Below, in pieces: positions 1 through 49,602 of a DNA stretch of 64,000 nucleotides (the stretch's first letter is position 1; every line of letters starts with the position of its first letter). Both the position numbers and the translations under genes were made by a program. The notes under the pieces were generated by a model. The model was not told the origin of the DNA, searched no databases, and saw only the letters and a list, made by a program, of their open reading frames with translations. The DNA is from Bacteroidota bacterium (GTDB taxonomy: Bacteria > Bacteroidota > Bacteroidia > Flavobacteriales > Flavobacteriaceae), in the NCBI GenBank assembly GCA_029557895.1, contig JAKQHT010000025.1:62001-126000 (forward strand), given 5' to 3'.

Positions 1-536
1 AATTGGCCGTAAAAGAAATCATTGGCCGTCAGCCCGACCTGTGCGTATCTGGAATTAACCACGGGAACAATGCCTCGATAAATGTTATTTATTCAGGAAC
101 AATGAGCGCTGCTATCGAAGCTGGCATTGAGGGCATACCCGCCATTGGTTTTTCTTTGGGGAATTTCAACTGGAATGCGGATTTTGAACCTGCAAAACCT
201 TATGTCCTAAAAATAGCCGAAAACGTATTGAAATTTGGATTGCCAAGCGGTGTTGTTCTGAACGTCAACATTCCCAACTTGTCAAAATCCGATATAAAGG
301 GTGTCAAAATATGTAGGCAGGCCAAAGCAAGATGGGAAGAAGAATTTGACAAACGTCAAAACCCACACGGTCGGGATTATTATTGGTTGACCGGGAAATT
401 CGTCAATCTGGACAATGGTGATGATACCGACGAATGGGCCCTGAAAAACGGTTACGTTTCGATTGTTCCCGTACAGTTCGACCTGACAGCATACTCAGTA
501 ATTCAAAATTTAAACAATTGGAATATAAATGATTAA
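1..536 (+). CDS. surE: 5'/3'-nucleotidase SurE (5' end outside window)
   Basis: ORF with SurE-type motif VSGINHGNNASINVIYSGTMSAAIEA; upstream of lpxB as commonly seen. Confidence 0.93.
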   Translation, partial: LAVKEIIGRQPDLCVSGINHGNNASINVIYSGTMSAAIEAGIEGIPAIGFSLGNFNWNADFEPAKPYVLKIAENVLKFGLPSGVVLNVNIPNLSKSDIKGVKICRQAKARWEEEFDKRQNPHGRDYYWLTGKFVNLDNGDDTDEWALKNGYVSIVPVQFDLTAYSVIQNLNNWNIND

Positions 537-38351: not shown

Positions 38352-38626
38352 TTGGAAACTGGTATTTACAAAATAAATGCAACTGCTTTTTCTGTGGCAA
38401 CCAAACCAATTTTTATAGTTTTTTTGTTTGTGATTAGTTCTTTGTCAAATCCTGTTAAAATATTGATATTGATTAATGTTCTGGATTGTTGGTCGTAGTT
38501 GTGCGGATGCCCTGATTTTCCGCTTCAAAATTTAGAACGGCTCCACATAAAAAATGGGGCATATGCCCTATTGTGCTACATCTACCGCTGTTGTTAATTT
38601 ACACCGCAATATGATATCGAGATAAA

Positions 38627-38695
38627 ATGAAAACATCGATCCTGTTTCTATTTGCATTATTCGAAGAAGCCAAACAGGAACTGAACAATTTATAA
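38627..38695 (+). pseudogene. 22-aa ORF: truncated signal-peptide remnant
   Basis: MKTSILFLFALFEEAKQELNNL*: signal-peptide-like start joined to a short tail. Confidence 0.3.
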
Positions 38696-38702
38696 TACCA
38701 CA

Positions 38703-39353
38703 ATGAAACCATTACTGGCTGCCATAGAACGACCGTTACAGTATTACCGTCAATGGGATTTTCTCATCTTTACGGTATTGACTTTGCTGTCGGTAGTGAA
38801 CGGACAAAGTACCGTTTTCTATCTGCTCTATTTCTTTTGGTGGAATGAGCTTATCCGTTTGGTAGTGGACAGACTGTGCTACAAACGCAATAAAAATGCG
38901 GTGTATGAAATCACACGCAACTCTCGTTTTTTTGAAAGTTTGTTTCTGATGGGGATTTATTGGGTGTTTTTGGTCGTGATTTTCGGGTTCATAGCAGCTG
39001 CAGACAGTCCGGATGCTGTAATAATTGCCAATATGCAGGTGTTGATGTTCCACAATTGGTTTTTCAATGCCAATCTGGTTTTTATTTTGCTCCAACGTTG
39101 GTATCAGCACAAGAGACAGCAACCGCTCCGGGTTTATTTTGAAGCTTTCAATCCCAATACGATCTTGCTGCACATTTCTATCATTATAGGAGCTGCATTG
39201 ATGTTTTTTGTGGTCAGAAACTATCCCGAAACATTTACACCCGAAAACCGCTGGGGTTCGGCGCTCATCATCCTGCCTTTCTTGCTGTTGCGGTTGTTGA
39301 TGCAAAAGCTGACGGCTTCGGATAATGTCATTCAAAAACAAAACAATAATTAA
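38703..39353 (+). CDS. polytopic membrane protein of unknown function
   Basis: about 5-6 hydrophobic segments. Confidence 0.75.
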   Translation: MKPLLAAIERPLQYYRQWDFLIFTVLTLLSVVNGQSTVFYLLYFFWWNELIRLVVDRLCYKRNKNAVYEITRNSRFFESLFLMGIYWVFLVVIFGFIAAADSPDAVIIANMQVLMFHNWFFNANLVFILLQRWYQHKRQQPLRVYFEAFNPNTILLHISIIIGAALMFFVVRNYPETFTPENRWGSALIILPFLLLRLLMQKLTASDNVIQKQNNN

Positions 39354-39371
39354 TCCCAAATACGCAATAAA

Positions 39372-40874
39372 ATGAAAAAATCAATCCTCATACTGCTCAC
39401 GCTCTTGACCGCTATCAGTGGTTTTGGGCAAAATATAGATTGGGCGAATGCACCACGCAATCCCGTTGCGTTTCCATATACGACTAATCATTTTGGTTAT
39501 AAAGGCGATGTGGCTTTGGTAAGCGATGGTCATACCGTTCGGCAGTTTAACAAAGACGGACTGCTGGAAAGAGAATTACAGGGTAAAAACCTGACCGAAT
39601 ATGTCTATGAAGCCGACAAAACATTGGTCGGAATGTATGTGTATAAAAACTATGACGAGCAAGTGAGTTTGACGCTTGTTAAGTTTCATTACAAAGACGG
39701 AAAACTCATCGGTACGCAATCCTCTTACAATGGAGGAGACGACCACAAGCAACTGTTTGAGTATAACGGTAAAGGGCTGTTGTCTGCCATTACCACGCAT
39801 CAAGGAGATACCATCAAAGCCTTTGAATATGACCAAGCGGGCAGGCTTTCCTATATGAAAGATCAAAGCTGGGGGTCGTTGGGTATGGTTTATGAATTCC
39901 GATATACCTATCAGCAACAAAAAGATTGGCTGAAACTATCCATCACAGGCAAAAACATAAAAGACCCCAAAGACAAACCAACATCATCGACCTTTTACTG
40001 CAAAAACGGCATAGAGAGCGAAACGCCCGATTTTAAAACCATAAAAACAGACAACAAAGGCAATCTGCTCAACGACCGGTTTGCCTATCTGTATTTTGAC
40101 GGACAAAAAACCGGAGCCGGATTTCCGCAGGGAACACCAATGTCGGGTTATCTGCTAACCGAAGCCCAAAAGCTATATGCCGGAAAGGATATTCAAGACA
40201 GTAATTGCAACGGGAACTGCAAAGACGGCTGGGGAAGTTTCACTTATCAGAATGGCGACAAGTACGAAGGCTTTTGGAAAGACAGCAAAATGAACGGCTA
40301 TGGGCTGTTTACGTTTAAAAATGCAAAAGCTACCTATGATGGCGAATTTCGGGACAACAGCATAACCGGAATGGGCATACTTACTTACGATGATGGCAAC
40401 AAAACCTATCACGGAGAATTTCAGAGTGGTGTTTTTAGCGGATTTGGCTCTTTACAGGATAAAAAAGCAAATACGTTGCAACTGGGGTTGTTTAAAGACA
40501 ACGTGCTGCACACCGAAGCCAAAGCAACAGGAAATACAACCGCTTGCACCAAAGGCGATTGCCAAAACGAAATTGGAATGTATGTGTATGAAAATGGCGA
40601 TATATTTATAGGGCAATTTGCCAACAGCCAACCTTTTAAAGGTTTATTCTATTACAAGCAAAACGGTACATTCTACATAGGCGAACTCAAAAACATACAA
40701 CCCGAAAATTTTGGAATGTTGATAGAACATAACGGAGCATTCAGTCAAAATGGCTATTGGAAAAACGGAAAGCTGAACGGATTGGGATCAAGCTACAAAA
40801 GAAACAACGGTAACGACAGAGTTAGAGAGATTGGAGAATTTAAAGACGGTACACTGATCAGAAAAATGAATTAA
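39372..40874 (+). CDS. exported protein with YD-like N-terminal repeats and MORN repeats
   Basis: signal peptide; YQNGDKYEGFWKDSKMNGYGLFTF...YDGEFRDNSITGMGILTY. Confidence 0.82.
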   Translation: MKKSILILLTLLTAISGFGQNIDWANAPRNPVAFPYTTNHFGYKGDVALVSDGHTVRQFNKDGLLERELQGKNLTEYVYEADKTLVGMYVYKNYDEQVSLTLVKFHYKDGKLIGTQSSYNGGDDHKQLFEYNGKGLLSAITTHQGDTIKAFEYDQAGRLSYMKDQSWGSLGMVYEFRYTYQQQKDWLKLSITGKNIKDPKDKPTSSTFYCKNGIESETPDFKTIKTDNKGNLLNDRFAYLYFDGQKTGAGFPQGTPMSGYLLTEAQKLYAGKDIQDSNCNGNCKDGWGSFTYQNGDKYEGFWKDSKMNGYGLFTFKNAKATYDGEFRDNSITGMGILTYDDGNKTYHGEFQSGVFSGFGSLQDKKANTLQLGLFKDNVLHTEAKATGNTTACTKGDCQNEIGMYVYENGDIFIGQFANSQPFKGLFYYKQNGTFYIGELKNIQPENFGMLIEHNGAFSQNGYWKNGKLNGLGSSYKRNNGNDRVREIGEFKDGTLIRKMN

Positions 40875-40899
40875 TACAAATTATAAACAGCAAAAAATT

Positions 40900-41727
40900 A
40901 TGAAAGCAACAATCACATTATTACTCATCCTCTTTACAAGCATTGCCACTTTTGGGCAAGTCCCTGATATATCAGGGCAAACCACAACCGAAACCCGTTT
41001 CTATAACAACAAGTATGGCAAATACACCAAAGAAATGGCATTGCAAAAAGTTAATGACTATGTTGCCCGATTAAAAAATGGAGGGTTCGTTTTCAATAAA
41101 ATTGAAGAAAAATCAGCATTTCATTTTACCATAAATTGGCAACAGCAATATGACCAACCTGACAACAAAATGGTTGTTATCATTGAGTATATCATCGGAG
41201 ATAATGATTTAACTTTAAAACTCAAAACCGCCGTCTATTTCAAATCCAAAGCGGATTTTGTAGTTCTTGACAGGAATAGCAAAATCGAAGCTGTAGGGCA
41301 ACTTTATAACAATCAGGTTAGTTTGTTTATTGACGGACTTTTCGATTATATAGGTATTAAAAACAATAAACCTGCCACTTCAACCACCACAGCAGGCTCA
41401 AATACCAATACTACCAACCCATACAGCGGTATGTCCACCGAAGCAGCAGCTTATTTGGCATCCTACAACATAAACCCAAATGGACTGAAAAAATATTTGG
41501 GCAACCAACACAAAAGCTGGGAAGACAAAGGCTATTCTGCCGAAAAAATCACACAGTCTTATGCCGATATGTTCAAAGAAGTATATACCAAAGACAAAAA
41601 AGCCGCTTTTGAATTGATCATTCATATGCCCGACAGTTGGTTGGAGGCAGACAAGCTAAAAAGTGTCTTTTCCCTGCTGACCAAAGAGCAACAACTCTAC
41701 ATCCAGGACGAAGCAAACAGACGTTAA
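40900..41727 (+). CDS. exported protein of unknown function
   Basis: signal peptide MKATITLLLILFTSIATFGQ. Confidence 0.72.
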   Translation: MKATITLLLILFTSIATFGQVPDISGQTTTETRFYNNKYGKYTKEMALQKVNDYVARLKNGGFVFNKIEEKSAFHFTINWQQQYDQPDNKMVVIIEYIIGDNDLTLKLKTAVYFKSKADFVVLDRNSKIEAVGQLYNNQVSLFIDGLFDYIGIKNNKPATSTTTAGSNTNTTNPYSGMSTEAAAYLASYNINPNGLKKYLGNQHKSWEDKGYSAEKITQSYADMFKEVYTKDKKAAFELIIHMPDSWLEADKLKSVFSLLTKEQQLYIQDEANRR

Positions 41728-41743
41728 TTAAATTCAAAATAAT

Positions 41744-42691
41744 ATGAAAACAATTCTAAAACATACCGCCCTATTGCTTTTCCTTGCTCTCGGCTTTACC
41801 TCTACAGCACAGGAAAGCATAAAACCCGAAGATTTCGATTTGCCCGAAAACACTGAAATGGCCTTGGAAATCACCGGTGTATATGATGGAGTGAAACACA
41901 CATTTACGCAAACCAATGCAAAGGAATATCAGTTCAACAGCAACGGACTGCTTGCCCAAGTGAGAGAAATGATTACCGACGGTTTTGGCAGCCAGGATAC
42001 TTACCATTACGATGGGCACGGCGAATTGGTAAAAGTGGATTATCTCCTAGGAACAAGTGCCGGACCAGTAACTGGTTCATCGACCCACAGCATTGAAAAA
42101 GAAGACTACAAAACCACTTATACACGTAAAAATGCCAATGGAGATGTAGAAAGAACCATTGCCTTTTTTAATGAAGCCGGCGAACTGCGTGGCAAAAGTT
42201 TCTATAATGCAAAAAAAGCCCTGGTGAAACAAATTGAGTATGATGGAGCAAAAACATACCGGATCAGGGAATTCAAGCTTAATAAAGTGGTTTCTGACAT
42301 TGTTTATGAAAATAATGAAGAGGGAAAACTGGCAAAAAAACTGAAATATACCGAACCTGGCAAAACACCTAGCAAGGAGCAGCTGACAACAATCAGTTAC
42401 AATGAAAAAGGTGACGCTGATAAAATGTTCGTACACTACGACAACGAACCGGGAACGACACCCAGGGTAATGAATACCCATACAATGGAATATGTGTATG
42501 ACGACGATATCTGGGTGGCACGCATAGAATACAGGCACGGCTACTATAAGCCCAGTCCGACATTGGATATAACACTGCGCCGTATCAAGACAGCGGATAA
42601 AATGTATACCCCAAAAGACGAAAAATCCTTGCTGGATTTCTGCAAGCAAGTGTATCAGCATTACCTGGATACAGAAAACAAGCAAGACTAA
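41744..42691 (+). CDS. exported YD-like repeat protein of unknown function
   Basis: signal peptide; YQFNSNGLLAQVREM, YHYDGHGELVKVDY. Confidence 0.72.
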   Translation: MKTILKHTALLLFLALGFTSTAQESIKPEDFDLPENTEMALEITGVYDGVKHTFTQTNAKEYQFNSNGLLAQVREMITDGFGSQDTYHYDGHGELVKVDYLLGTSAGPVTGSSTHSIEKEDYKTTYTRKNANGDVERTIAFFNEAGELRGKSFYNAKKALVKQIEYDGAKTYRIREFKLNKVVSDIVYENNEEGKLAKKLKYTEPGKTPSKEQLTTISYNEKGDADKMFVHYDNEPGTTPRVMNTHTMEYVYDDDIWVARIEYRHGYYKPSPTLDITLRRIKTADKMYTPKDEKSLLDFCKQVYQHYLDTENKQD

Positions 42692-42705
42692 TAAACCGGA
42701 ACAGA

Positions 42706-43655
42706 ATGAAATACACGATTACAACTTTAATGATGATTGCGGCCTTTGTCGCTACTGCCCAACAGTATGTAGCACAGCATCTCACACCGCCCAAAACCTA
42801 TTGGCAATCCTTTGGCTATCAAAAACAGCCCGACCACGTACAAACGGTGCAATACAAAAGCGATAGCCTCGGTTATGAGCCTACTGCGGTTTTGGTAAAA
42901 TCGTTCAACAAAGAGGGTTTTCTTATTCAGGATTACACCCATATTTTGGGCAATTTTGCCAGTGAAACGGCACACAATTATGTGTACAAAAACGGCGTCC
43001 TGGACAGCATCAACACCTTGACAACCAATCAAGATTTCAGCTCAACCAGAAATTGAATTATAACCCAAAAGGCCAGCTTGTCCATATTATATCAACAGGA
43101 AAATATTCCGAATACACCGATACTTTTACTTATTATGAAAATGGAATGGTCAAAACCATTCAACGAAAATACAAAGACAAAAGCACAACAACTACATCGT
43201 ACGACCATAAGAAGAACGTAGTAACCGAAACCGATAAACGAGCCAATGGCAAAATCGCTACCACAACCTATGTATATAACGTAGATGAATTGTTCGCAAC
43301 GATTGATGGTAAAAATACCGTCAGGTTTCACAACACCTACCACAATTACGATTTTGAAGTACAAGTCGAAGGCGATGCTTTGCAGTATGCGATAGAAAAA
43401 CGCAGATTGTTCCAGCAAGACGAGCAATATCTCGGCAAACTATCAAAGGAGAAAAATGGGAAAATCGTGTTTGACATTCCTGCCATTTCCCGAAACGATA
43501 ATGGCGACATCATACGCCAACTGCAATTGGACAAAACGAGCAAGCAGACACGCAGGAGATTGTGGTTTAGCAAATACGTCTATGCAGACGGCACCACAAG
43601 CGGCAGCACCGATTATGATTTGCTGTTCGGACAACGAGTAGAAAAAATGAAATAA
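42706..43655 (+). pseudogene. exported YD-like protein split by a frameshift near 43030-43053
   Basis: ORFs 42706-43056 and 43053-43655 together resemble neighbour 41744-42691; homology-like reading continues across the frame change. Confidence 0.65.
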
Positions 43656-43664
43656 CGCCATCCA

Positions 43665-44675
43665 ATGAAAGAAAAGTTACCGCTCAACGAGCAAGACATC
43701 AAAAAGTTGTGGAAGCACCTGTTGCCGACGATACTATTTCCGTTTGTGGCAGCAGGTATGTTTTATGCTTTCTTTTTGGTTTTCTTTAAAGATACAGGCT
43801 TTTTTCAAGATAAAATTGGTCTGTATATGCTCGTGGGCTTTAGTGTATTTTTCTTCGGCATTATTGCTTGGATGATTTGGGGCTATGCCATTGATTTGCG
43901 GAGGGGCTTCAAATATAGGATAGAGGGAAAAATAACCGACAAAGAATTAAGGGTACATACCTCTACCTCACATTCTTCGGGAGGCAAAACAGGCAGCGGC
44001 AGTACACACAGTTCCACCACACGGCATTATTCCGTAGAAATCGAAGGTGTGCAGTATTCCATAGAGCAGGAACATTATGGAAAACTACAAGTAGGTGCAG
44101 CTATCATCATCGAAAAAGCACCAAAATCGCACCTTACCTTATTTTTAGAAGTAGGTAAAACCGATGAATTACCACCCGAAAAATCAATAGAAGCAGATGA
44201 CGACAAACGGAAATTTTTGAGCAGCACACCGAGAAAAGCATATTTTACACAAGACGATTACAAGGCATTGAAAAGAGGGTTTTGGGGCAAGGCAAAATTC
44301 AGATTGATTGCATTAACGGTAATGGGGTTATTGGTTGTGCCGTTTTTGGTGGGCAAAATGCAGATAAATATATTTTTCCTGTTTCCGTTGATGCTGATTG
44401 CCATATACCAATTCTGGAAGTTCAACAAGGAATGGAGGTTATACTACCGCAATAAACAATATGCTTACAAAGAGGGCATTCCTACTATTGTGCAAGACAA
44501 ATCCAAATACAATCGTTCAAACAATGTAAAAACTTCGGGAGGAACTATCAGGGTAAAGGACAAACTGTACGCACAATTAAATGTTGGCGACAAAATCATA
44601 TTATACAAACCTGCCAAAGGCAATCAGATTTTGAGCATCACGACTGCTGCCCATGAAGAAATCTATGTGATGTAA
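43665..44675 (+). CDS. membrane protein with two TM/soluble repeats (DUF3592-like)
   Basis: two TM pairs each followed by a beta-rich segment. Confidence 0.65.
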   Translation: MKEKLPLNEQDIKKLWKHLLPTILFPFVAAGMFYAFFLVFFKDTGFFQDKIGLYMLVGFSVFFFGIIAWMIWGYAIDLRRGFKYRIEGKITDKELRVHTSTSHSSGGKTGSGSTHSSTTRHYSVEIEGVQYSIEQEHYGKLQVGAAIIIEKAPKSHLTLFLEVGKTDELPPEKSIEADDDKRKFLSSTPRKAYFTQDDYKALKRGFWGKAKFRLIALTVMGLLVVPFLVGKMQINIFFLFPLMLIAIYQFWKFNKEWRLYYRNKQYAYKEGIPTIVQDKSKYNRSNNVKTSGGTIRVKDKLYAQLNVGDKIILYKPAKGNQILSITTAAHEEIYVM

Positions 44676-44705
44676 TGAATAATGGAATGAACAAAGTAGA
44701 AGCAG

Positions 44706-45758
44706 ATGAAAACGATAATACATAAAATTTTAGGTACAGCATTTTTGCTGATGGCTGTTCTGTTTTCCCAAAAAGTCTTTGCCAATGCCGCACAGCCCGG
44801 CATTTGGAACGCAGGCGGTACAGTCTTTACGATGCTTTATCCCGAAGATTCCGCCACTTTCAAAAAAGTGCAGATGCAGCAGGAACGGATTTATATTCAG
44901 CTATACAAAGGCTTTGCGGTGGTCAAAGGCACATACCTGTTTCGCAATACCACAGACGAAGCGCTCAACTTTAAAATGGGCTATCCTGTCAATGGCATTT
45001 ATTCCGGTGGCGATGCAGAACTAAACCAAGTTACGCTCGATAGCTTAAGCCAATTTAAAATCAGAGCCAAAAACAAATGGTTGCTTTTGCAGGAAAAACC
45101 CAACAGGGAATACGACAATATCATCGCATTTAGCGACAACTGGAAAGTATGGGAAATGTCATTTGCCCCCAATGAAAGCCAAACAGTGGAAGTATATTTT
45201 ATCGTGAATACCAATGAAGCCGGTGTGCGAAGTGGATACAACAAGAAACGAAAAAACGCTTTTATCTACCTGTTGGAAAGCGGTAGCGTGTGGCATCAAC
45301 CGATTGAAAAAGGAAACTTCTACGTACAGCTAATGGACGGTCTGACACCGAAAGATGTGCAGGGCTTGTCATCGGGCTTTAGTTTCCGTTACAATGAAAT
45401 ACACCAACTGTACAGCGGAACAAAAACTAACTTTTCGCCTACACCAAAAGACAATTTAGTAGCAACCTATTATGAACGCAACGAACACTTTGTATTTGAT
45501 AATGCACTCGTCCAAACAGAAAACCTCTTTGCAAAAATTGATGAATTGAGCCGTATGTCTTTAGAAACCTTAACCTACACCAAAGTAGCTATTGGAGACC
45601 CTTGCGAAGTGGAAACCACATTTTTAGGTTATTTACCAATGGCGCTTACCCTATTTGTGATTTATGCACCGTTTATTATTGGGATTATTGTTGTAGCCAT
45701 CATCATTTGGGCAATCGTGAAATGGAATAAAATCAGAAGAAAAAAGAAAGGAGCTTGA
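44706..45758 (+). CDS. exported protein with C-terminal TM anchor (DUF4424-like)
   Basis: signal peptide and C-terminal TM followed by Lys/Arg-rich tail. Confidence 0.65.
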   Translation: MKTIIHKILGTAFLLMAVLFSQKVFANAAQPGIWNAGGTVFTMLYPEDSATFKKVQMQQERIYIQLYKGFAVVKGTYLFRNTTDEALNFKMGYPVNGIYSGGDAELNQVTLDSLSQFKIRAKNKWLLLQEKPNREYDNIIAFSDNWKVWEMSFAPNESQTVEVYFIVNTNEAGVRSGYNKKRKNAFIYLLESGSVWHQPIEKGNFYVQLMDGLTPKDVQGLSSGFSFRYNEIHQLYSGTKTNFSPTPKDNLVATYYERNEHFVFDNALVQTENLFAKIDELSRMSLETLTYTKVAIGDPCEVETTFLGYLPMALTLFVIYAPFIIGIIVVAIIIWAIVKWNKIRRKKKGA

Positions 45759-45759
45759 T

Positions 45760-46101
45760 ATGGTAGCTTTAGCCTTATTATTTATCGTGATTATCGGACT
45801 GTTATTGTGGATAGTACGGTTGTTGCAAGATTTTTTTAAAGCTTACAATAGTTTGAATGAAAATGCCTTTACAGCCGAGTTTGAAGATAAACTACAGAAA
45901 CAAAAAAACATAATTTCCTGTCAAGAAAGGAACAGTGAAATCAATACCGTTATCAACAAACGACTTACGGAATTGGATCAAAAATTTCCAGCTTCACTAA
46001 CACAAATCGAACATCCTGAAATGCTTACATCTGCATTTAAGCAAGCACTACATTCTTCATTGAACTTGCTCAAAGAAACCGAATATAAACACAAGCCATA
46101 A
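45760..46101 (+). CDS. small membrane protein of unknown function
   Basis: 113 aa, single N-terminal TM, starts 1 nt after preceding gene. Confidence 0.65.
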   Translation: MVALALLFIVIIGLLLWIVRLLQDFFKAYNSLNENAFTAEFEDKLQKQKNIISCQERNSEINTVINKRLTELDQKFPASLTQIEHPEMLTSAFKQALHSSLNLLKETEYKHKP

Positions 46102-46149
46102 AATAAATTTATACTTTTATCTCCATATTAATCAAACTAAATCTATCGT

Positions 46150-47961
46150 ATGCAGTTGAAACGGATTATATGGATTATTTGTGTCGGGGTGTTTTCTCTG
46201 AATGCGTTTGCACAGGAACTGACTTTGACGGACAGCATCAGGCAATCCGTACAGAAAGAAAGCGATTACAATCAAAAGATTGAAATCCTGCAAAAAAGCA
46301 TCTTAAATATTTATTCTACCAAATTTGATGAAACCATTGAACTGGCTCGTTTTGGCTATGACCTTGCCCGTCAGAAAAATGACAAAGTAAACAAAGGCGA
46401 TTTTATGCGGACAATCGGTCGGGCATTGATGAAGAAAGGTAACATTGACAGTGCTTCTGTCTACTATCATAAAGCCCTTTCCGAATTGGAGAACAGTGGT
46501 GATAGTGAAAAGTTGGGTTTGCTGTACGATGATATGGCAAGGATTTTCCGCAAATTGCATCAGCCCGAACGGGCTTTGGGCTTTTACGATAAAGCATTAG
46601 AACTGTATGAAGCAAGTAACGATTTAGAGGGCATTGCCCGCATCAACAATGAAAGCGGTGTGGTTTTTCGGGATGAGTACAATGATTATGAAGAAGCCAA
46701 AAGGCGGTTTGAAAAATCTCTGAAAATTCAGACACAACGAAAAGATACATTAGGAATTGGTTACTCGCTGGAATTTTTGGGTTACAACGAATTGATGCAG
46801 AAAAATTACGCATCGGCTGAAAGCTATTTGAAACAGGCACTGGAAGTCAGAAAAAAAGGAAAAGACGATTTTGCTTTAATGCTCAATTACACTGCATTGG
46901 GCGAGTATTATAAAGCAACTAAAAACTATTCGGTTTCCAATGAATATTTCCAAAAAAGCAATGAGGTTGCCCAAAAAATCAAATTTCCCGATATACAGCA
47001 GTACAACTATCAGCAGATTACCGACAATTTTGAAAGTCAGGGAAATTATGCAGAAGCCTACAAATCGCTTAAAGCATTTAATGTGCTCAACGATAGTTTG
47101 TACAATGCAGAAAAACTAAAAAATGTAGAAGAAATTACGACCAAATACGAAACTGCAGAAAAGGAAAAGCAAATACTGCAACACAAAGCAGCAATTACCA
47201 ATCGCAACTTTTGGATTTTCGGATTGGTAACATTGGCAGTCATTATCGGGTTGATGGGCTTCTTGCTGTACAAACAGCAAGTGCTTAAAAACATCAGGCA
47301 GCAGAAAGATAACGAGCTTAAACTCGCTTTGGAAAAAATTGAAAGCCAAAACCGATTGCAAGAACAGCGTTTGGCAATATCACGGGATTTACACGATAAT
47401 ATCGGGGCACAGCTATCATTTATCGTTTCGGCAATCGACACCATTAAATATTATGTTAACGACAAAAATGATAAACTGACCGAAAAATTGGAAAATATCG
47501 GTGCATTTGCAAAAGAAACTATACAGGAGCTGCGTGATACGATTTGGGCGATGAACAAATCGGACATTATGCTGAAAGATTTGCAATCCCGCATTGCCAA
47601 CTTCATCGAAAAAGCCAAACAGTCCCAACACAATATCAATATTTCGGTCGAAGCGGACAAAAGCATTTCGGCAGATCTGAAATTCACGGCATTACAAGGG
47701 CTGAACATTTTTCGTATCATTCAGGAAGCGACCAACAATTCTTTGAAATATGCCGAAGCCAACCATATTCAAATCCAAATTTCCCAAAAGGAAAACAATG
47801 TAAATTTCTTGGTGCAAGACGATGGAAAAGGTTTTGTAGAAACGGAAGTAGAAGCAGGAAACGGACTGCTGAATATGCGGAAACGAGCCGAAGAATTGGG
47901 TGGAGAACTCATACTATTATCAGAAGCGGGCAAGGGAACAACCATTACGTTCAACGTATAA
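46150..47961 (+). CDS. TPR-containing sensor histidine kinase (HisKA_3 type)
   Basis: TPR array, one TM, SRDLHDNIGAQLSFI phosphoacceptor motif, DDGKGF ATPase motif. Confidence 0.92.
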   Translation: MQLKRIIWIICVGVFSLNAFAQELTLTDSIRQSVQKESDYNQKIEILQKSILNIYSTKFDETIELARFGYDLARQKNDKVNKGDFMRTIGRALMKKGNIDSASVYYHKALSELENSGDSEKLGLLYDDMARIFRKLHQPERALGFYDKALELYEASNDLEGIARINNESGVVFRDEYNDYEEAKRRFEKSLKIQTQRKDTLGIGYSLEFLGYNELMQKNYASAESYLKQALEVRKKGKDDFALMLNYTALGEYYKATKNYSVSNEYFQKSNEVAQKIKFPDIQQYNYQQITDNFESQGNYAEAYKSLKAFNVLNDSLYNAEKLKNVEEITTKYETAEKEKQILQHKAAITNRNFWIFGLVTLAVIIGLMGFLLYKQQVLKNIRQQKDNELKLALEKIESQNRLQEQRLAISRDLHDNIGAQLSFIVSAIDTIKYYVNDKNDKLTEKLENIGAFAKETIQELRDTIWAMNKSDIMLKDLQSRIANFIEKAKQSQHNINISVEADKSISADLKFTALQGLNIFRIIQEATNNSLKYAEANHIQIQISQKENNVNFLVQDDGKGFVETEVEAGNGLLNMRKRAEELGGELILLSEAGKGTTITFNV

Positions 47962-47986
47962 CTGAATTTAACTACAAATACCGAAT

Positions 47987-48643
47987 GTGATGAAAACAAG
48001 AATAGCCATCATAGAAGACAATAACTTTCTGATAAAAAGCGTCAAGGAAAAACTATCGTTTTTTGAAGACATAAGCATTTCCTTTACCGCCAACAACGGG
48101 TTGGAATGTATGGATAAATTGGACGGAGATACCCGAACAGATCTAATCCTGATGGATATTGAAATGCCGAAAATGAACGGCATTGAAGCCACCGCTTTGG
48201 TCAAACAGAAATATCCGCAGATAAAAATCATAATGCTGACAGTGTTTGATGACGATGACAATATCTTTCAAGCCATACAATCGGGAGCAGACGGCTATCT
48301 GTTGAAAGATACGGCACCGCAGGCACTCTACGATGCCATTATCCAAACTTTGGAGGGCGGTGCAGTTATGACACCATCCATCGCTATGAAAACACTCAAT
48401 CTTTTGCGTTCGCCTTTATCTTTAGAAACCGATGAGGAGGAAGATGAAACCATAAAACTGACAAGCAGGGAAACCGATGTGTTGGAACAATTATCAACGG
48501 GATTACCTTATACCGCCATTGCCGAAAACCTGTGTATTTCTCCTTCTACAGTCCGCAGGCATATCGAAAATATTTACCAAAAATTACAGGTGCATTCCAA
48601 AACCGAAGCCATTGCTTTGGCAAAAAAGAAACGGTTTATATAA
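47987..48643 (+). CDS. NarL-type response regulator
   Basis: IIEDN, LILMDIEMPKMNGIE, HTH LTSRETDVLEQLSTGLPYTAIAENLCISPSTVRRHIENIYQKL. Confidence 0.93.
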   Translation: MMKTRIAIIEDNNFLIKSVKEKLSFFEDISISFTANNGLECMDKLDGDTRTDLILMDIEMPKMNGIEATALVKQKYPQIKIIMLTVFDDDDNIFQAIQSGADGYLLKDTAPQALYDAIIQTLEGGAVMTPSIAMKTLNLLRSPLSLETDEEEDETIKLTSRETDVLEQLSTGLPYTAIAENLCISPSTVRRHIENIYQKLQVHSKTEAIALAKKKRFI

Positions 48644-48978: not shown

Positions 48979-49602
48979 TCAACTATTTCGCAACGCATTG
49001 ATTTCCTTATTGGTGCTATCGATAAATTGCAAGATATCTTCGCGTCCCAATGCAGAAGTCGAAGAAGTGACAAAATGCCTTGGAGCTTCTTCCCAGTTGG
49101 TCAGGAGCTCGTTAAGATAAGTGTTAACGTGGTCTTCAATGGTATTGGGTTTCAGCTTGTCTGCTTTGGTAAAGACAATAGAAAACGGAATGCCGTGTTC
49201 GCCCATCCATTGCATAAACTCGAGATCTATTTTTTGTGGTTCGTGCCGTATATCGATGAGTACAAAGGCATTGACCAACTGGAGCCTTTTTTCAAAATAA
49301 TCGGTGATAAACTTTTGGAACTTATTCTTTAGCGATTTTGATACCCTAGCGTATCCATAGCCCGGCAAGTCCACCAGATACCAGTTCTTGTTGATTATAA
49401 AATGGTTGATAAGCTGTGTCTTACCCGGTTTACCGGAGGTTTTTGCCAAATTCTTGTGGTTGGTCAACATATTGATCAATGACGATTTCCCTACATTGCT
49501 CCGTCCTATAAAGGCGTATTCCGGCAGGATGTCCTTCGGGCATTTCGTCACATCGGAATTGCTGACTATAAATTCGGCGGTTTTTATCAACATCAAATTC
49601 AA
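48979..49602 (-). CDS. engB: ribosome biogenesis GTP-binding protein YihA/YsxC
   Basis: FIGRSNVGKSSLINML, DLPGYGYA, TKADKLKP. Confidence 0.94.
   Translation of the reverse strand: MNLMLIKTAEFIVSNSDVTKCPKDILPEYAFIGRSNVGKSSLINMLTNHKNLAKTSGKPGKTQLINHFIINKNWYLVDLPGYGYARVSKSLKNKFQKFITDYFEKRLQLVNAFVLIDIRHEPQKIDLEFMQWMGEHGIPFSIVFTKADKLKPNTIEDHVNTYLNELLTNWEEAPRHFVTSSTSALGREDILQFIDSTNKEINALRNS

Follow-up and report, generated by a model that had tools for sequence, protein, structure and literature searches.

In Porphyromonas gingivalis, the FimS/FimR system consists of a TPR histidine kinase and its regulator (PMC11053733). DUF4424 proteins have been described through the structure of lpg2210 (PDB 4g2a), for which M1-aminopeptidase domains were reported as fold neighbours, and no recurrent gene neighbourhood was found for this family (PMC3848476). 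Here we analyse a run of genes in which both of these elements have counterparts. Its kinase shares with FimS/FimR the combination of a TPR sensor and a HisKA_3 kinase in Bacteroidota, and its best NCBIfam match is FimS; however, it scores 106 bits against a cut-off of 600 (NF053520) and is therefore not FimS, the cluster has no fimbrial genes, and the kinase travels inside an operon that is apparently under its own control. The DUF4424-like protein of the run (G) has 4g2a as its best fold match, followed by the same M1-aminopeptidase neighbours, but differs from lpg2210 in having a C-terminal transmembrane anchor, no YARHG Pfam match, a conserved gene neighbourhood and a score below the Pfam cut-off. 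Literature searches for the gene group as a whole found nothing.

The window, by which we mean the whole stretch of 64,000 nt that was analysed (G000:C21:62001-126000), belongs to a draft genome of 2.4 Mb that is 85% complete. Open reading frames were called with a simple procedure, and the draft genome may contain errors. Ten genes, labelled A to H, HK and RR (Table 1), lie on the plus strand between a divergent dnaG and a convergent engB, and the gaps between them, in order from A to RR, are 18, 25, 16, 14, 9, 30, 1, 48 and 28 nt. The preliminary description of this DNA had reported ten tightly packed genes, all of which are present, although the one placed at 42706-43655 (gene E) is not a single open frame; it had also started the run at 38627, where we find a 22-codon leader ORF ahead of the first gene, A. 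The two halves of E align end to end with intact orthologues of 315-319 aa in three hosts (L023, L026, L027), and the split reflects either a true frameshift or a mistake in the incomplete assembly. For RR, the ATG is most likely the start codon. In this genome surE and engB (window positions 3-536 and 48979-49602) are 48 kb apart, whereas in genus mates only two ABC-transporter-like genes separate them; the wide spacing is a rearrangement of the region.

Table 1. Positions of the features discussed in the text (window coordinates unless a locus is named).
Feature	Position	Strand	Remarks
Putative operator palindrome ATGGGGCATATGCCCTAT, 18 bp	38554..38571	.	Exact match to ATRGKGCAWWTGCCCTAT; sole exact copy in genome
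Degenerate -7 box TTAATTTA	38594..38601	+	4/6 to TAnnTTTG; 22 nt after palindrome
Leader ORF, 22 codons (MKTSILFLFALFEEAKQELNNL)	38627..38695	+	Several other clusters have gene c9 here
A, polytopic membrane protein	38703..39353	+	Kept in type-1 and type-2 clusters
B, exported YD/MORN-repeat protein	39372..40874	+	Pfam MORN
C, exported, with ~100-aa helical C-terminal domain common to several cargo proteins	40900..41727	+	Profile
D, exported YD-like protein	41744..42691	+	
E, exported YD-like protein, frameshifted near 43050	42706..43655	+	Overlapping ORFs 42706-43056 and 43053-43655, in different frames
F, membrane protein	43665..44675	+	Four TM-like segments in two pairs
G, exported DUF4424-like protein with C-terminal anchor	44706..45758	+	Core of every cluster
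H, small protein with one N-terminal TM segment	45760..46101	+	In 7/7 type-1 clusters
HK, signal peptide, TPR sensor, TM, HisKA_3, HATPase	46150..47961	+	
RR, NarL-type response regulator	47990..48643	+	ATG start at 47990; in-frame GTG at 47987
attC-like repeat	L028 11687-11822		
attC-like repeat	L033 8971-9104		
attC-like repeats	L030 5259-5397, 11705-11843, 511-650, 14601-14737, 19464-19602, 20196-20334		

Signal-peptide-like N-termini without a lipobox were found in B, C, D, E, G and HK, and transmembrane-like segments in A, F, G, H and HK; the part of H beyond its N-terminal segment is probably cytoplasmic. Only MORN in B (3.5e-10) and the TPR, HisKA_3 and HATPase domains of HK were above the Pfam cut-offs, with RHS/YD and DUF4424 matches below them and no Pfam match in the remaining proteins of the run; in B-G, moreover, no type IX secretion C-terminal sorting domain was matched by Pfam at E-values up to 1. 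The YD/MORN repeats named in the preliminary description are accordingly upheld for MORN in B, while the RHS/YD part stays sub-threshold (RHS_repeat 4.6e-4 in B), YD-like repeats being near threshold in B and D. A profile of the helical domain of C matched 13 stretches in 11 or 12 cluster proteins, C included, usually at the C-terminus of proteins whose bodies otherwise differ. Structure prediction of a YD-like protein, which had been suggested at the outset, gave for a gene-E orthologue a predicted single-layer beta sheet (pLDDT 84) that resembles, with low TM-scores, Rhs cores and equally OspA and Bacteroides porin-like proteins. The duplicated membrane and beta architecture first proposed for F is borne out, as each of its two pairs of TM-like segments is followed by a beta-rich stretch. 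For G, the description as an anchored DUF4424-like protein holds as a resemblance but not as a family assignment: it scores 18.9 bits to DUF4424 (PF14415) against a gathering cut-off of 27, weak matches occur in 13 of 14 homologues (best E 2.6e-4), and a sequence search against solved structures gave no match, but a model of G (pLDDT 74) returned 4g2a as the top Foldseek hit (E 1.6e-11, though at a TM of 0.41-0.44), with M1-aminopeptidase N-terminal domains next. At the 3' end of the run, HisKA_3 (46.3 bits) and HATPase_c (47.3 bits) in HK, together with a receiver-HTH partner in which the LuxR-type HTH sequence is conserved as judged from the alignment, identify HK and RR as a two-component system.

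Relatives of G are rare. The 120 further family genomes examined, almost all from other genera, contained none, and a profile recovered relatives in 5 of 387 other genomes of the class; a scan of the genome collection gave 14 loci, which we sorted into groups. Type-1 clusters begin with A, continue with a variable set of exported YD, MORN or other genes, and end in an invariant G-H-HK-RR. They occur in seven hosts: the window, Parapedobacter indicus, two Flavobacterium, Confluentibacter, Chryseobacterium and a Sphingobacteriales MAG, in the last of which A is fragmentary, and in Chryseobacterium a 237-aa ORF lies between HK and RR. As six other hosts repeat this layout, the gene run is more than a chance assembly; homologues never co-occurring outside this strain had been set beforehand as the observation that would refute the grouping, whereas G, H, HK and RR are in fact kept together in all seven hosts, which span at least three families. 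Type-2 clusters (Marixanthotalea, Lutibacter, Winogradskyella, Brumimicrobium and Lacinutrix) contain B, an E-like gene, F, G and A without the signalling pair, Kaistella and Frigoriflavimonas have smaller gene sets, and in four distant cases G stands by itself. The exported families also occur as scattered genes, and since they are found in type-2 clusters without the pair, the pair is not obligatory. In marine Flavobacteriia, hairpin repeats resembling attC, 134-140 nt long (CAACAATGTATAA ... TTATACGAGACCGTTG), occupy intergenic positions and border type-2 clusters, an arrangement like that of integron cassette arrays. A search of type-2 hosts for the integron integrase TIGR02249 gave nothing above the cut-off, and control genomes also gave signal.

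The window cluster pairs with that of Parapedobacter indicus in trees of G (support 100/99) and of A (98/100), and the two are 85% identical in A, 77% in F, 76% in G and 84% in RR. This identity, found although the hosts' MraY proteins are only 66% identical, makes it clear from the sequences compared that the operon has passed horizontally between distant Bacteroidota. MraY of the window genome is closer to that of F. profundi (74%) and of the Winogradskyella and Marixanthotalea hosts (83-84%); protein identities were used here, as a comparison of mraY DNA gave only short alignments for the window. Neither GC content (cluster 40.0%, window 41.8%) nor the codon third position has a clear foreign signature, so that it is the trees and identities that speak for transfer. 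The cluster HK shares 66-69% identity with the cluster HKs of five other hosts and 35-39% with the resident pair of its own genus, while RR is 73-84% identical across clusters and 62% to the host's resident paralogue. Among type-2 clusters, the Marixanthotalea and Winogradskyella copies share 98.8% identity across 6.3 kb; the similarity stops sharply at the ends, and the surroundings differ. In the Parapedobacter HK (L022 11435-13411) the kinase half is conserved (78% DNA identity) and the sensor half is different.

A candidate operator for the run was found 132 nt upstream of A. The pattern ATRGKGCAWWTGCCCTAT was first read by eye from four type-1 loci and then searched for in 13 whole genomes, allowing two mismatches; the copies in Parapedobacter, the Sphingobacteriales MAG and F. 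profundi, the last of which is nearly identical to one of the four, turned up after the pattern had been set. All seven type-1 hosts have exactly one exact copy per genome, before the first gene of the operon, compared with a chance expectation of about 0.014 over the seven genomes, and the six genomes without a type-1 cluster, three from genus mates and three from type-2 hosts, had no exact copy. In each of the seven promoters, 22 nt is the best offset from the palindrome to a -7 box resembling TAnnTTTG, the box of the window being the weakest of the seven. In F. psychrophilum, a box of the TAnnTTTG type lies at -12 to -5 (PMC9723704); from this placement and the spacing, the centre of the palindrome would lie near -43.5, a position that we infer to be typical of activators. 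In five clusters, the internal genes that were tested had no comparable site ahead of them, and scans for sigma-70 promoters and terminators gave only chance levels. The presence of a single palindrome and -7 box before the first gene in 7/7 type-1 clusters lends comparative support to the view, put forward in the preliminary description, of one transcription unit in which envelope proteins are made with a dedicated signalling pair. Gene order, transfer, operator and spacing can all be read directly from the compared sequences. From co-occurrence, spacing and palindromy we infer, as very probable, that the cluster RR acts on the palindrome.

A related palindrome, TACGNCAWWTGNCGTA, has 13 exact copies in ten genomes against 0.55 expected. 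Twelve of them are accounted for: seven lie before cluster-family genes, four before the resident HK-HK-RR operon or its RR, and one before xerD. In a genus mate (G098), these sister sites precede xerD, a D/B operon and two isolated genes, A and c10, which came to light only through the motif. In G511 they precede a B-like gene and the resident RR, and in both the window genome and Lutibacter the resident kinase operon. In the distant genome G437, in which no regulator was located, they precede all three cluster-family operons, which encode a 609-aa protein with F, a CHAT protein, and c9. In type-2 clusters, ATACGTAATCTGTCGTAT or a close variant of it is found 49-51 nt upstream of the first gene, and a palindrome lies 50-57 nt upstream of the Frigoriflavimonas G-H set and of a solitary G gene (G769). 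For one exact sister site in the window genome (C25:20736; L115 5237), no target gene is obvious downstream. Three genomes of the genus (L112 5091, L121 4181, L126 4618) have a sister palindrome in the interval that separates xerD from a gene resembling an outer-membrane beta-barrel; it is exact in one of the three and lacks the 22-nt spacing to a -7 box. A second locus in F. profundi (L129 1174-19714), reached through near-palindromes, contains c9, two TPR kinases, a c1-family gene, a CHAT gene, a small TM gene and a paralogous RR; it carries matching palindromes and is a further branch of the same regulatory family.

The resident HK-HK-RR of the same genus (L055-L057) resembles the cluster pair in having a paralogous kinase and regulator and a palindromic operator, with the same spacing at several resident sites. 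Unlike those of the operon, its targets are scattered in the genome, and the two systems differ in both recognition helix and half-site: cluster RRs have SPSTVRRH and sites ending TGCCCTAT, whereas resident RRs have S[TS]GTVRKH and sites ending TGYCGTAT. This pattern, seen in few site classes, fits a divergence of helix and operator together.

Several alternative scenarios may be postulated. In one, which we consider unlikely, the run is an inter-bacterial conflict or phage-defence island in which the pair switches on exported repeat proteins directed against competitors or phages. Its rare and patchy distribution, horizontal transfer and variable cargo would suit such an island, as would the CHAT protease-like protein found in Parapedobacter and G437 and the transposase fragments or attC-like repeats beside some clusters; however, PADLOC on the tested cluster proteins gave only chance-level Csx21 hits (0.008 for H), Pfam detected no nuclease, pore-former or toxin domain in cluster proteins, no relatives of G were found in viral contigs or plasmids, and the inclusion of xerD and the resident kinase operon in the sister regulon suggests physiology instead. 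It is considerably less probable that the pair has no functional link to the exported genes beyond lying next to them and that the packing reflects ordinary genome compaction. The draft genome is compact in general, with many other same-strand gaps below 50 nt in the window, and type-2 clusters lack the pair; against this stand the constancy of G-H-HK-RR and the one operator at the operon head in every type-1 host, the sister operator before the same gene families and a paralogous RR, and the pairing of HK and RR with c9, c1 and CHAT genes at the second F. profundi locus. It is likewise highly improbable that the run is a toxin locus in which B, D and E belong to the Rhs/YD polymorphic toxins, either as remnants or as small members, for although MORN in B, the YD-like repeats, the weak RHS_repeat matches and the sheet of the gene-E family do recall Rhs/YD and MORN proteins, these are short exported sheets of about 315-500 aa rather than toxin shells, closed-shell length, a self-cleavage core and a C-terminal toxin domain were not detected, and the gene-E sheet has its other, equally good matches.

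That A through RR form a coherent, mobile and co-inherited unit appears nearly certain, and a horizontally acquired, self-regulated envelope operon is, in our judgement, probably the best explanation for it. The best reading of the sister sites is that this operon packs together a regulon whose genes, in relatives, are dispersed under the paralogous HK-HK-RR and the sister palindrome. A mechanism covering regulator binding, activation, the signal, complex formation, protein function and an envelope role can be proposed in conditional terms. The TPR domain of HK would be exported to the periplasm, where it probably reads the state of the envelope or the operon's own products; phosphorylated RR would then bind the palindrome and bring RNA polymerase to the -7 box, 22 nt further downstream, driving A through RR as one unit, with positive autoregulation resulting from the inclusion of HK and RR. 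The products would comprise an inner-membrane core of A, F, G and H and the periplasmic or outer-membrane-facing repeat proteins B-E, which vary by host. G may hold this complex together, its DUF4424-like fold having been proposed as a scaffold. A role in envelope surveillance or repair is a tentative suggestion, somewhat short of an even chance.

Joint divergence of regulator and operator should insulate the operon from the host's resident system. A broader proposal, for which we see roughly even odds, is that of a plug-in regulon: a mobile operon would bring with it a paralogue of the recipient's own two-component system, its helix and operator changed together such that cross-talk does not arise, while type-2 clusters, without a pair but with the resident-type operator, would plug into the host's existing system. 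One palindrome and one regulator provide a testable regulatory handle on Bacteroidota envelope proteins that have no assigned function, and the orphan DUF4424-like fold gains a conserved gene neighbourhood. The coexistence of a scattered regulon and a packed mobile version of it under paralogous regulators is a natural case well suited to the study of how regulators and their operators diverge together.
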